Below are positions 1-32,700 of a stretch of DNA of 64,000 nt, in pieces. The DNA comes from Neolewinella litorea (lineage in GTDB: Bacteria; Bacteroidota; Bacteroidia; Chitinophagales; Saprospiraceae), in the NCBI RefSeq assembly GCF_004803465.1, contig NZ_SRSF01000002.1, positions 186,001 through 250,000 of the forward strand, given 5' to 3'. Made by a program: the position numbers and the translations under genes. Numbering within the stretch: position 1 is the first letter of the stretch; every line of letters starts with the position of its first letter. The notes under the pieces were generated by a model. The model was not told the origin of the DNA. It saw only the letters and a list, made by a program, of their open reading frames with translations, and did no database searches.

Positions 1-752
1 AAGGTGACATCCCACCGCAGAGCACCCTGAGCATTGGCGACCTCCCGGTGATCGGGGCCGGGCGCGTCCTGATCGTGGAGGATAATCGCACCAACTCTTT
101 TCTCGTCGCGCGCTATTTCCGCAGGTGGAAAGTGGATTTTGATCTGGCAGCCAACGGAAAGGAGGCCCTGGAATGTGTTGAGGCCAACGACTACGATCTC
201 GTACTGATGGACCTGAAAATGCCGGTAATGGACGGCTATACCGCCTCGAAAAGGATCCGCTCCATGCCCCCGCCCAAAAATCAGGTGCCCATCATCGCCT
301 TCTCCGCCAGCGCCCGCATGGCCATGACGGAAAAAATGCACGACGCGCACATCGACGATTTTGCCCTCAAACCTTTTGACCCCCGCCAACTACACGCTTT
401 CGTACGGCGCTACCTCAGCCCTCCCGCCATGAATTTTCCCGAACTACGCAGCACCCTCGACCACGACCCCGCCGAGCTTGAGGCCTTCTCCATCATCCTG
501 CAGCAGGAACTCAACCAGGCATCCGATGCCCTCACCAAGGCGTTCGCCGACGACGACGTACACGAGATCGGCGACCTGAAGCACAAGCTCAAAACCACGC
601 TCCAGATCCTCGAAGCCGAAACGGTTAAACAGAACCTGCAGGAGATCGTCGACGACCTCCGCGCCGGCCGTTCACCGGACAAAAAAACCAAAGCCACCGT
701 CCGCCAGGAACTCGACAAACTATCCCGCCGCCTCGCCCGGCAACGGTGGTAG
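1..752 (+). CDS. Hybrid sensor histidine kinase, C-terminal part (receiver + Hpt domains), cut by window edge
   Basis: The frame is open to the left edge, so the start lies outside; a GTG at 48 is an internal codon rather than a convincing start. Numbered from that GTG, residues about 5-123 form a response-regulator receiver: acidic pocket VEDN, phospho-acceptor Asp55 in LVLMDLKMP, conserved Ser in the AFSAS strand, and Lys108 in ALKPF. Residues about 140-230 are a helical Hpt-like domain with a candidate phospho-His179 in KHKLKTT. Receiver followed by Hpt at a C-terminus is the usual tail of a hybrid phosphorelay kinase; the sensor and kinase parts are not in the window. It would relay phosphate from the kinase core to a separate regulator that cannot be named here. 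It is followed by the dyad repeat array. Confidence 0.75.
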   Translation, partial: GDIPPQSTLSIGDLPVIGAGRVLIVEDNRTNSFLVARYFRRWKVDFDLAANGKEALECVEANDYDLVLMDLKMPVMDGYTASKRIRSMPPPKNQVPIIAFSASARMAMTEKMHDAHIDDFALKPFDPRQLHAFVRRYLSPPAMNFPELRSTLDHDPAELEAFSIILQQELNQASDALTKAFADDDVHEIGDLKHKLKTTLQILEAETVKQNLQEIVDDLRAGRSPDKKTKATVRQELDKLSRRLARQRW

Positions 753-814: not shown

Positions 815-1470
815 ACGCGGTACCTGGAGGTGCGGGACCGTTCGTGCGCCACCTGGAGGTGACCAACCGCCCACGCGTCACCTGGAGGTGACGAACCGTC
901 ATGCGGTGCCTGGAGGTGACGAACCGTCATGCGGTGCCTGGAGGTGACGAACCGTCATGCGGTGCCTGGAGGTGACGAACAGCCCACTCGCCACCTGGAG
1001 GTGACGAACCGTTCATGCGGCGCCTGGAGGTAAAGGACAGCCCATGCGCCACCTGGAGGTGACGAACCGTCATGCGGCACCTGGAGGTGACGAACCGTCA
1101 TGCGGCACCTGGGGGTGACGAACAGCCCACTCGCCGCGTGGGAAATATTCCTCTCTACCAATTGCTTTATTAACCCTGCACTCGGTAACTGGAGGTGCTG
1201 AATCGTGCCTGCGCCACCTGGAGGTGACGAACCGTCATGCGGTGCCTGGAGGTGACGAACAGCCTATGCGCCACCTGGAGGTGACGAACCGTCATGCGGT
1301 GCCTGGAGGTGACGAACAGCCCACTCGCCACCTGGAGGTGACGAACCGTTCATGCGGTACCTGGAGGTAAAGGACAGCCCATGCGCCACCTAGAGCTGAC
1401 GAACCGATTATGCGGCACCTGGAGGTGACGAACCTTTCACGCGACACCGGGAGGCGACGGACCGCCCACG
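815..1470. repeat. Tandem 28/29-bp dyad repeat array, about 21 units in two blocks
   Basis: Each unit reads roughly CACCTGGAGGTG followed by ACGAACCGTCATGCGG. The core cctggaggt recurs at 823, 852, 881, 909, 937, 965, 994, 1023, 1052, 1080, 1108 (slightly changed), then about 1188, 1217, 1245, 1274, 1302, 1331, 1360, 1389, 1418 and 1446, that is, every 28 or 29 bp. Each unit carries two dyads: CACCT-GG-AGGTG and TGACG-AAC-CGTCA. About 55 bp of AT-richer unique DNA (1139-1187) separates the blocks, and both blocks end in CGCCGCGTGGG. The array lies between the 3' ends of the convergent kinase and hscA genes. The period is not a multiple of three and there are no spacers, so it is neither coding nor CRISPR. 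Function unknown: protein-binding array, attenuating hairpins or a REP-like element are all possible. Confidence 0.9.
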
Positions 1471-1508
1471 CGCCGCGTGGGCAAAATCTCTTTTATCCGA
1501 GCTTAATA

Positions 1509-3392
1509 CTACGCCAGGTCCTGCCCCTTCATCGCGGCGGCCACGTTACGGTCCAGCGCCTCATGCGCCAGGGGGGTCGTGAAGGTGTTGAGTTCCTCCA
1601 GCCGCCGGTTGATCTCGTCCTTGTCCGAACCCTGTACGCTTTCGGCCAGGGCGTCGGCGTAACGGTTGATTTCCGCCACCTGGTTGGGGGTGAGCCAGCT
1701 TTCGTTCTGCCGGATGAATTTGCGGGCGCTCAACAAGACATTGTTGGCCTCCGTGCGCGCTTCGGCCAGGGCCCGCGCCGCCATATCGGCTTCGGCGTTC
1801 TGCAGACTGTCCATCAGCATCAGGGCCATTTCCTCCTCGCTGATGCCGTACTGGGATTTGATCGTAACGCTCTGTTCGGTGCCGCTCCGGTGTTCGGTGG
1901 CCTTCACCCGCAGGATGCCGTCGGCGTCAAGGTAGAAATGGATCTCGATCTGGGGGATACCGGCCGGCATGGGCGGAATATTCTCCAGGATAAATTCACC
2001 CAGCTTGCGGTTATCGGCCACCATGTCGCGCTCACCCTGGTAGACAGCGACTTTCAGCTTCACCTGTCCGTCGACACTCGTGGTGTATTTCCGCCCCACC
2101 TTGGTGGGCACCTTGGAGTTGCGGGGAATGATGGGGTCCATGAGCCCGCCCACCGTTTCAATTCCGAGGCTTAGGGGGGTAATGTCCAGCAGCAGCACGT
2201 CCTTTTGGTTGCCGGCCAGCACGTCGGCCTGGATGGCGGCACCGAGGGCCACTACCTGATCGGGGTCTAGGCTGTCGTTAACCTCCCGCCCGAAGAATTC
2301 ACTCACCGATCGCTTCACCAGGGGTACACGGGTACTCCCCCCCACCATGATGACGTGGTCGATATCTTCCTTCTGCAGTCCGGCATCTTTCAGGGCGCGG
2401 TCGCAGGAGCCGAGCGTACGCTCCACGAGCGGGGCGAGTCGGTTCTCCAGTTCAGTGCGCGTCAGGTGCAGGGAAATACCGTTGAAGTCGGCCGTGAATT
2501 CCGTTTCGGAGGAAAGCGCCTTCTTCGCCCGTTCGGCCAGCAGTCGGATCGTGCCGCGCGATTCGGGGCTGTCGAGCTGCAGCGAATGGTTCTCCCGCCA
2601 GTAATCCACGATGGCCTGGTCAAAATCATCGCCGCCAAGGAAGGTATCGCCGTTGGTACTCAGCACCTCGAAGATTCCCTGCTCGATCCGCAACAGCGAG
2701 ACGTCAAAGGTGCCCCCACCCAGGTCGTAAACGGCAATGGTGCGCCCCTCATCCTCGTCGGTAAGACCGATACCGTACGCCAGACTGCTGGCCGTAGGTT
2801 CGTTCACGATGCGCAGCACGTCCAGGCCGGCCAGCCGGCCGGCGTCGCGGGTAGCTTGCCGCTGGGCGTCGTTGAAATAGGCCGGCACGGTGATCACCGC
2901 CCGGCTGACGGTGGTACCCAGCTCCGCTTCGATGCGGGCCTTGAGCGTCTTGAGGATCTCGGCCGACAGTTCAATGGGACTATAGTAGCGATCCCGGCCA
3001 TCGGCGGTCTGTACCGCGATCTTCACCAGGCGGTCCTCGTCTTCGTCGATGATGCGGTAGCCGAAGCGGTCCTTCACTTCCGACAGGTCGCCGTAGCTTT
3101 TTCCGAGCAGCCGCTTCACGGAGTAAATGGTGCGTTCGGGGTCGGTTTCCAGGTGGGATTTCGCCGCCTCACCGACTACCGTCGTGCCGTCCGCACGAAA
3201 GTGCACGACGCTCGGTACGAGTACGCTCTTGCCATCGGGGCCCGCAACGGCCACGGCGTGGCCGTCCTTGACGTGGGCCACCAAACTATTGGTTGTGCCC
3301 AGATCGATGCCGACGATCGTTTCTCCTACGGAGGTAACCGCTTCGTCTTCCTTTACTTTACCTGCCTGCAGGTCGATGCTATACTTTGCCAT
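1509..3392 (-). CDS. hscA: Hsp70-family chaperone, HscA type (Fe-S cluster assembly)
   Basis: A 627-residue Hsp70. The ATPase domain starts [14 protein letters not shown] and contains the phosphate-binding [12 protein letters not shown] and the adenosine motif [10 protein letters not shown]; the substrate domain begins [17 protein letters not shown]. The [19 protein letters not shown] stretch and the short C-terminus without the EEVD/GGG tail of DnaK favour the HscA branch, which helps a J-protein transfer Fe-S clusters from IscU. The reading frame continues upstream to 3587, but the family N-terminus fits the ATG at 3392 (MAKYSIDLQ). No isc or suf genes are next to it, so HscA rather than a DnaK paralogue is judged from sequence alone. 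It is divergent from the Sua5-family gene and convergent with the kinase across the repeat array. Confidence 0.75.
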
Positions 3393-3567
3393 AGTGGGTA
3401 TACGCGCAGGGGCGGGGGGTGGTTGGCGGAAATTCAATCCGCCTGATCCACCGCAAACCCGTCCCCGGCAAAAACTGCCCCGCATACCGGCCGCGGCCTG
3501 CGAACAATAATCGTGCCCGCCCGATTGATGGAGCATAACCGCAGGCGAGCCGATCGACCTTCCTGTG

Positions 3568-8405: not shown

Positions 8406-8690
8406 GGGTTTAGGTGGTGAATTTCTGAGTTGGTGAGTTCTTGAATTAGTGGGCATTCTTGCCTCGCTTTGCTGGACCCGCGTGATTGATTTTCTGACTT
8501 GGTGAATTATTGAATTGGCGGCCATTCTTGCCTCACTTCGCTCGGCGTGCGTGGTTAGGTTCCTGAGTTGGTGAGTTAACGGGCATCATTGCCGTGCTTA
8601 GAGGAGTTTTCCGACCCGAGCGAAGCGAGGGACAACCCCCAGACGGCAAACTCACCAATTCAAAAATTCACCAACTCAACAACCCAGAGA
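8406..8690. repeat. Convergent spacer with three 68-bp direct repeats and an inverted copy
   Basis: Segments beginning tgagttggtgag or close variants occur at about 8426, 8495 and 8563 (spacing 69 and 68 bp). Each is followed by a gcattcttgcctc-like stretch. At about 8650-8681 a related sequence appears in inverse orientation (ctcaccaattcaaaaattc, caccaactcaac), so long imperfect hairpins can form. A gagcgaagcgag motif at 8619-8630 is shared with the 32.3-32.7 kb repeats. No gene is seen. The location between converging stops fits a bidirectional terminator or REP-like element. Confidence 0.75.
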
Positions 8691-21394: not shown

Positions 21395-21960
21395 GCGCGT
21401 AGCGATGGCTTCAGCGGTCATGCTGCATTTGTCACTTGCCTTTCCGGCAGCTTGCCGACTCAAGTCGGCGCTACACACAAATCAACGCCACTTGTAGCGA
21501 TGGCTTCTGCCGTCATGCTGCTTTTGTTCTTGAGGGTGATGGCAGCTTGCCGACTCAAGTCGGCGCTACACACATGTCGGCGCTACCCGTAGCGATGGCT
21601 TCAGGCGTCACGGGTCATTTTTTCCTGGCCGTGCCGGCAGCTGGCCGACTCAAGTCGGCCCTACACTCAAATCGGCGCCACCCGTAGCGATGGCTTCAGC
21701 CGTCACGCTGCATTTTTTCATGCGGCGCAGGCAGCTTGCCGACGCAAGTCGGCGCTACGCTCAAGTCGGCGCTACCCGTAGCGATGGCTTCAGCCGTCAC
21801 GCTGCATTTTTCCATGCGGCGCAGGCAGCTGGCCGACTCAAGTCGGCGCTACGTGTAGCGATGGCTTCAGCCGTCACGCTGCTTTTGTTCCTCGCCGGAC
21901 CGGCAGCTTGCCGACTCAAGTCGGCGCTACACGCAAGTCGGCGCTACGCGCGAATTACAC
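21395..21960. repeat. Alternating palindromic repeat array (two REP-like elements, 6 + 6 copies)
   Basis: Element A, GTAGCGATGGCTTCAGCC plus GTCACGCTGC (imperfect dyad around GGCTTCAGCC), starts near 21399, 21494, 21599, 21684, 21778 and 21854. Element B holds the near-perfect palindrome GCCGACTCAAGTCGGC at 21454, 21549, 21654, 21738 (one change), 21832 and 21910. A and B alternate with a period of about 78-105 bp, and several gaps carry an extra half-site caagtcggcgctac. It lies in the 855-bp divergent gap between the fusion gene and ftsK. The layout resembles REP/BIME clusters of other bacteria; no RAYT transposase is in the window. The 21231-21394 part holds no clear feature beyond the fusion gene's promoter. 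Confidence 0.9.
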
Positions 21961-32285: not shown

Positions 32286-32299
32286 GTAAGAGGTTGATT

Positions 32300-32700
32300 A
32301 TCGATTATCGATTCTCGATTTTCGATACTCGATTCCTGATTTGGCTGCCGCTGCTACCTGCTCGCTTCGCTCGTTCAGGGGCTTCGTCCGGAGGTTAATC
32401 TTTGATTCGTGATTCTCGATACTCGATACTCGATTCCTGATTTGGCTGCCGCTGATGCCTGCTCGCTTCGCTCGTTCATGGGCTTCGTCCGGAGGTTGAT
32501 CTTTGATTCGTGATTCTCGATACTCGATACTCGATTCCTGATTTGGCTGCCGCTGATACCTGCTCGTTTCGCTCGTTCATGGGCTTCGTCCGGAGGGTGA
32601 TTTTGGTTCGCGGTTCTTGATACTTGATTCCTGATTTGGCTGCCGCTGATACCTGCTCGCTGCGCTCGTTCAGGGGCTTCGTCCGGCGAGTTCCGGTACA
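32300..32700. repeat. Four tandem copies of a roughly 101-bp repeat
   Basis: Copies are marked by gattcctgat at 32331, 32432, 32533 and 32626 (spacing 101, 101 and 93). Each holds a run of tcgattctcgatactcgat, the sequence tggctgccgctgatacctg, a ctcgcttcgctcg palindrome-like core and gggcttcgtccgg. They fill the gap between the Nramp-like gene and the second sulfatase. They are not coding: 101 bp is not a multiple of three, so the apparent peptides change frame. The ctcgcttcgctcg core recurs, inverted, in the 8.4-8.7 kb spacer. Confidence 0.88.

Follow-up and report, generated by a model that had tools for sequence, protein, structure and literature searches.

Between two convergent genes of Neolewinella litorea, 21 direct copies of a short palindromic unit form an array (positions 821–1482 of the window, by which we mean the whole 64,000-nt stretch analyzed, contig NZ_SRSF01000002.1 from 186,001 to 250,000). 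The array is probably a non-autonomous tandem in which a REP-like hairpin, similar to those that surround the RAYT-type (REP-associated tyrosine, HUH/Y1) genes of the genus, is repeated head to tail in the manner of satellite DNA. No RAYT gene adjoins it, and no transposition was seen. The description of the array as palindromic, non-coding, and growing by unit duplication is right.

Organization of the array

The preliminary description had counted about 21 tandem units of 28/29 bp at strict spacing. The count stood: 21 copies with a CCTGGAGGT-like core were found at 821–1473 (17 exact, two with one mismatch, and two with two mismatches), a number taken from one assembly in which the array could be collapsed or mis-sized. 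The first core lies at 823 and the last at 1447. The spacing was less strict than described, with 19 of the 20 core-to-core steps measuring 28 or 29 bp and the remaining one, of 80 bp, splitting the array in two. TRF reported a period of 29 (23 copies, score 492) and a period of 57 (score 587) in the window. A 20-base unit pattern allowing up to three mismatches gave 17 matches, compared with a mean of 0.04 and a largest value of 1 in 100 shuffles of the window. All 21 units point the same way.

Sub-array 1 (units 1–11, 821–1142, minus strand) is closed by the palindrome CCCACTCGCCGCGTGGG (1126–1142), and sub-array 2 (units 12–21, 1186–1482, minus strand) by the palindrome GCCCACGCGCCGCGTGGGC (1464–1482); the last unit of each runs into a CCCAC(T/G)CGCCGCGTGGG palindrome. 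The stretch between them (1143–1185) holds about 36–43 bp of non-repeat DNA, and its last 7 bases align with the left end of sub-array 1. No likeness beyond shuffles was found between this stretch and the DNA that follows sub-array 2 (1843 of 2000 shuffles scored as high). The earlier statement that there are no spacers thus holds inside the sub-arrays, where units abut, and fails between them; the unique spacers between repeats that mark a CRISPR were not found, since the units abut inside each sub-array. Compared with each other, the left ends of the two sub-arrays agree at 32 of 39 positions, a match reached by 0 of 2000 shuffles; they differ from the inner units. The inner units barely differ, whether compared inside one sub-array or across the two, and the outer ones are diverged. 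Units 3–5 and 9–10 are runs of identical or near-identical copies, and the block of units 6–8 is repeated as 16–18. A homogeneous center, diverged edges, and matching sub-arrays are the pattern expected from duplication of a whole sub-array.

Two dyads had been attributed to each unit, which proved too generous. The first, CACCTGGAGGTG, was exact in 9 of 21 units and had all five pairs Watson-Crick in 10, the other 11 palindromes being imperfect; the second, TGACGAACCGTCA, was exact in 7 of 21. Conservation had also been placed mainly in the dyads, and for the second dyad this is incorrect. Hairpin stems in the array are 4–5 bp long. In a typical unit (1050–1077), the minus-strand hairpin reads GGTTCG-T-CACC-TCCA-GGTG. 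Ten array hairpins have at least four pairs, and their 5′ flank is GGTTCG in eight, GGTTGG in one, and TGTCCT in one.

As had been stated, no coding frame runs through the array: no ORF of at least 60 aa spans it as a whole, and three merely overlap it (410–874, minus; 955–1161, minus; 1410–2174, plus), the first and the last of these antisense to the adjoining genes. Neither an Rfam family at gathering score nor a tRNA was found in the array.

The folding energy of the whole array as RNA (20 shuffles per strand) was at the shuffled mean on the plus strand (z = −0.22) and mildly below it on the minus strand (z = −2.34), so that the RNA hairpins proposed earlier were not supported. Single units folded as DNA were no better than shuffles (z about −0.8), and the closing palindrome as DNA folded well (z = −2.77). 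The single terminator-like site in 600–1700 lies outside the array, at 746–725, with a shuffle average of 0.9. Neither RNA folding nor the predictions of promoters and terminators spoke for an RNA-level or regulatory function. Most units (821–1473) carry GGAGGTGA, which we take to be a match to the extended Shine-Dalgarno complement of 16S rRNA; a plus-strand transcript would offer many copies of it.

Other repeats were observed in the window. At 21398–21951, a tandem array with a 95-bp period combines GTAGCG-headed palindromes (GTAGCGATGGCTTCAGCCGTC) with inverted GTAGCGCCGACTTGAGTCGGC; these look like GTAG REPs in a BIME-like order. At 32296–32686, a 101-bp unit that contains GATTCTCGATACTCGATTCC runs and a GCTCGCTTCGCTCG palindrome is repeated in tandem about four times. 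Tandem units of 69 bp and 16 bp lie at 8418–8683, with partly complementary ends (TTGGTGAGTT and AACTCACCAA).

The convergent gap and the distribution of the core

The array lies between convergent genes, as first described. The upstream neighbor is the 3′ part of a response-regulator/Hpt gene (3–752, plus strand; Response_reg, E = 8.1e-27) that runs off the start of the window; its Hpt Pfam match is weak (E = 8.4e-4, below the cut-off). The downstream neighbor is an Hsp70 (DnaK-like) gene (1509–3395, minus strand; Pfam HSP70, E = 4.9e-186) with an open frame to 3587. The distance from stop to stop is 756 bp. Among 15 congeneric loci downstream of the Hsp70 gene, the same convergent pair was kept in eight, with gaps between stop codons of 0, 0, 0, 1, 4, 7, 7, and 9 bp; no Hpt neighbor was found at the other seven. 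A gap of 0–9 bp in relatives, compared with 756 bp here, makes the array look like an insertion. We conclude that it is a real insertion, found in one genome only.

The exact 16-mer core CCTGGAGGTGACGAAC was present in 1 of 21 genomes of the genus, with 13 copies, all inside the array, and was absent from all 20 congeners. Absence from relatives, which the preliminary description had regarded as speaking against its reading, was therefore found for the exact core but not for the wider hairpin family described below. The array DNA matched 1 of 298 genomes drawn from the family, a draw in which five congeners were listed and in which the closest relative by Hsp70 identity (G016, 91%) was not among the genomes listed. 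The array was unmatched in the plasmid collection. A two-core pattern gave 24 stretches in genome contigs, none with the array unit on inspection (one, L086, holds a different palindrome of GTAGCG type), and four stretches in IMG/VR, of which three were another 14-bp repeat and one an isolated pair; both scans possibly left the own genome or very near genomes uncovered. With these scans and the plasmid search negative, no phage or plasmid home was found for the array. No Y1 transposase was found in the window (C12:186001-250000), in agreement with the earlier remark that none lies nearby; on the same contig, Y1 transposases occur at C12:24630 and C12:366942.

Relatives of the unit and the closing palindrome

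The sequence CCNGGAGGTNACGANCCG, with up to one mismatch, occurred at 48 places in the own genome, and its reversed control at none. The array accounts for 14 of these places. Of the remaining 34, 31 fall at seven loci, and 16 of the 31 surround a single RAYT gene on contig C36, on both of its sides. Each of 29 other genomes had zero to seven places, with one recurring match that we take to be rRNA. All seven kin loci carry recurring GCGACCGGAGGTCACGARCCG-type units, compact at L178 and L181 and elsewhere set within longer composite repeats.

The C36 gene (C36:120292-120936) encodes 215 aa. The protein scored 30.1 bits against Pfam Y1_Tnp (cut-off 23) and 61.8 bits against NCBIfam NF047646 (REP_Tyr_transpos), below the cut-off of 80. 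When its predicted model (pLDDT 91.6) was compared with PDB folds, the top match was 4er8, in which the E. coli RAYT is complexed with a REP hairpin; a sequence search of PDB with the protein found nothing. The motifs N-H-x-H and Y-x-x-x-N-P were invariant across 46 aligned sequences (N112, H113, H115, Y175), and named relatives include Neolewinella and Lewinella proteins, some of them called RayT. By its predicted fold, the C36 protein is a RAYT.

Each flank of the C36 RAYT holds eight copies of GACCGGAGGTCACGA, whose hairpin is related to, but not identical with, that of the array. The minus-strand array hairpin is GGTTCG-T-CACC-TCCA-GGTG-GCG, and the C36 hairpin is GGTTCG-T-GACC-TCC-GGTC-GCG. 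The two share their inner pairs and flanks; one base separates the loops (TCCA vs. TCC), and the outer stem pair, C-G in the array and G-C at C36, is swapped as a pair. When the commonest 28-mer unit was aligned with the C36 unit, from a repeat family picked by eye, the match ACC(T)GGAGGT(G/C)ACGAACCGT had a score of 28, reached by 6 of 20,000 shuffles; the score against the C38 unit was reached by 5 of 20,000. With three other RAYT repeat families, the 28-mer unit matched no better than shuffles did. The C36 arrays also hold a second palindrome, GGTTCCCGACATCCTGTCGGG, which is absent from the array at 821–1482. A profile of the 21 units matched no tested locus at E ≤ 0.001: it scored 7.2 bits at the C36 RAYT locus, at most 8.0 at the other kin loci, and at most 10.8 at loci with the closing palindrome, compared with up to 8.4 in control DNA. 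Because the profile did no better on RAYT arrays than on control DNA, the case for kinship is built on a common architecture and on matches that are short.

The closing 21-mer (1462–1482) recurs exactly at three further places in the genome, and the palindrome that closes sub-array 1 is a 3-mismatch member of the same dispersed family. With up to three mismatches, CCCACGCGGCGCGTGGGCNGTCCGG was found at 37 places in the own genome (two in the array) and at 17 in G016, and in none of the other 58 of 60 genomes. This palindrome often lies in arrays together with a second one, ACCTCCACCCGCCGGGTGGAG. In G016, variants of both alternate in the two flanks of a RAYT frame that contains a single internal stop, those of the first palindrome having two to three mismatches. 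The closing palindrome is the only part of the array securely tied to the dispersed composite. The preliminary description knew of no named family with this unit, which is only partly correct; relatives of the closing palindrome, and of the hairpin together with its 5′ flank, do occur around RAYT genes.

We also considered the whole unit as a shortened form of the two-palindrome composite and rejected this, since consensus alignment gave no support (53 and 69 of 300 shuffles as good). Elsewhere, at L122:2700-3900, L123:2080-2720, L124:1760-2500, and L212:1400-3500, arrays with periods of roughly 84–186 bp are built of CCCACGCGGCGCGTGGG-type palindromes in alternation with different ones, CTCCACCCGCCGGGTGGAG among them; those at L212 bracket a RAYT frame with one internal stop.

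Repeats around RAYT genes of the genus

RAYT relatives were found in 20 of 21 genomes of the genus and in 1 of 39 others (49 matches). Thirty of these matches formed the first set of loci, and the other 19, three of them already inspected, were held out. A 12-mer repeated at least three times in the 1.5-kb flanks was present at 23 of 30 RAYT loci and at 16 of 19 held-out loci, compared with 1 of 32 controls (1 of 20 Hsp70 loci, which is the array itself, and 0 of 12 other loci). A 12-mer present at least twice in each flank was found at 18 of 30 RAYT, 9 of 19 held-out, 0 of 20 Hsp70, and 0 of 12 other loci. In the first set and its controls, some loci had short flanks (four of the RAYT loci, two of the Hsp70 loci, and one of the others). 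At Y1 loci of other genera, taken from their scores to be mostly IS200-like, repeated 12-mers occurred at 13 of 30 loci (both flanks, 6 of 30) and CC-TCC(A)-GG hairpins at 3 of 30. Repeats in the flanks are thus not unique to the RAYT genes of the genus.

Within the arrays, 4729 of 4820 copies of repeated 15-mers ran one way, the copies not being independent. Across the flanks of the 23 loci, the commonest 15-mer was direct at 12, inverted at three, mixed at six, confined to one flank at one, and absent at one.

Hairpins with CC-TCC(A)-GG and two further pairs numbered 74 in 84.9 kb, at 14 of the 30 RAYT loci, whereas mono-shuffled sequence gave a mean of 1.66 and a largest value of 7. The held-out loci had 11 in 56.6 kb (7 of 19 loci) and the control had 5 in 125 kb (4 of 31 loci). 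The rates per kb were 0.87 in-sample, 0.19 held-out, and 0.04 in the control; since the motif had been derived from the first 30 loci, the fair figure is the held-out one. The constant core was accompanied by eight types of outer stem that differ by paired changes. The commonest hairpin instance had a 5′ flank of GGNN[GC][AG] type at 9 of 21 loci, compared with 1.65% of background positions. Within the 14 nt examined beside 83 such hairpins at 19 RAYT loci, GTAG was seen five times and GTGG eight times; CGTC was near 2 of the 83.

Five Y1-type transposase genes were seen in the own genome (L118, L119, L120, L121, and L213:1400-3700), four RAYT-like and one IS200-like, and each stood, by eye, among its own palindromic repeats. 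The RAYT-like frame at L213 had no Pfam match at E 0.001, yet it is 45% identical to the C36 RAYT.

Origin of the array

If the array is a tandem of a RAYT-type hairpin, as we consider probable, then a RAYT may have moved or copied the hairpin, or a short run of it, in single-stranded form into the space between the stop codons of the convergent genes, where an insertion would do little harm. Slippage and unequal exchange would then have lengthened the run, one step being the duplication of an entire sub-array. Any present effect of the array is likely passive, that of a 3′ spacer with hairpins.

Growth by replication slippage alone is what a plain minisatellite would require, a 28/29-bp unit having arisen by chance and its likeness to RAYT repeats being convergence of GC-rich palindromes. 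The runs of identical units (3–5 and 9–10), the return of block 6–8 as 16–18, and the duplicated sub-array all agree with such an origin, as do the lack of a significant profile match to any RAYT array and the confinement of the exact core to one genome. It is nevertheless unlikely, if a serious competitor, since the match to C36 reaches past the palindrome into ACGAACCGT with the outer stem changed as a pair, the closing palindrome belongs to a dispersed family, and the 0–9 bp gap of the relatives offers little starting sequence. Transcribed hairpins that end or stabilize the convergent transcripts would suit a position between two 3′ ends, and the closing palindrome folds well as DNA, the minus-strand RNA mildly better than shuffles. 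The plus strand has no extra stability, however, the sole terminator-like site is outside the array, and eight congeners with the same gene pair have no array, all of which makes an RNA-level element highly improbable. We give still less credence to the multi-site binding platform suggested earlier (for a nucleoid protein, gyrase, or a regulator), for which no support was found. With a DNA helical repeat of 10.5 bp per turn, units placed every 28/29 bp do not fall at whole helical turns; more than half of the palindromes are imperfect, and the exact core is missing from all 20 congeners compared. What speaks for a platform is the regular spacing of 21 palindromes and the reported binding of several proteins to REPs and BIMEs (PMC2817692, in the portion available to us).

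Beyond the origin of this array from a RAYT-type hairpin, a RAYT system proper to the genus can be sketched, which we regard as a doubtful and speculative extension. Its enzymes would read a constant head, CC-TCC-GG, behind GGTYGA/GGTTCG; the outer stem would drift, its changes coming in pairs. Through rolling or repeated copying of a single strand, the enzymes would deposit direct head-to-tail runs of hairpins in places such as the space between convergent genes. Were this true, the arrays of the genus would be enzyme-made bacterial satellites, with the array at 821–1482 a compact, strongly amplified example.

Apart from that extension, the constant TCC loop, the pair-varying stem, and the GGTY-type 5′ flank are a concrete candidate for the feature that Bacteroidetes RAYTs recognize. 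This candidate recurs around many RAYT genes of one genus, and both recognition and amplification are directly testable.

Comparison with known systems

In the portions of the literature available to us, RAYT-linked REPs were first defined by a GT(A/G)G head and by inverted orientation flanking the gene, in a first survey with cases in gammaproteobacteria only (PMC2817692). Pseudomonas fluorescens SBW25 was described as having ordered tandem arrays with as many as 12 REPs, along with REPIN clusters adjoining RAYTs (PMC3116915). The array shares with the REP/REPIN and RAYT systems of P. fluorescens SBW25 and E. coli its short extragenic palindromes. It may also share with them dispersal through the genome (the exact core is confined to the array, a related hairpin recurs at seven further loci, and the closing palindrome occurs at 37 places) and a Y1/HUH gene among repeats of its own kind (the hairpin that brackets the C36 RAYT is related to that of the array, not identical). 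It differs from the GTAG class in that no GT(A/G)G head was found, and from REPINs and BIMEs in that all 21 units are direct, with no inverted pair. Compared with classical REPs, its stems are short (4–5 bp) and its 21 units are spaced at 28/29 bp; across the RAYT flanks of the genus, repeats are more often direct than inverted.

Within the same phylum, RAYT (TnpAREP) subclasses 2.4 and 2.6 are frequent in Bacteroidetes, and those of subclass 2.6 are reported to lie beside "atypical secondary structures" that have further copies in the genome (PMC6006769, in the part accessible to us). The resemblance is that RAYT genes stand amid atypical hairpins with copies elsewhere in the genome; that part of the paper speaks neither of tandem arrays nor of a constant TCC loop. 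The C36 protein has NHVH and YLLNNP, and W-A where the table of PMC6006769, as accessible, gives W-Q. CGTC-tagged REPs, reported from five phyla including Bacteroidetes, have stems of 8–9 bp, loops of 4–5 nt, a short tail, rare clusters, and no transposase gene in the available portion of their description (PMC3733652). Like them, the array has no GTAG, and its minus strand has TTCGTC before ACC; the CGTC tag with an 8–9 bp stem was not found, the array stems being 4–5 bp.

With bacterial minisatellites (VNTRs) the array has in common direct tandem units, a homogeneous center, and diverged edges, and it differs from them in that kin of its unit and of its closing palindrome stand around transposase genes. 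Queries of the openly licensed literature, made without the genus name, found no account of such arrays in the genus. Although it is not a classical REP, the array behaves as a REP cluster would, and it fits an under-described branch in Bacteroidota.
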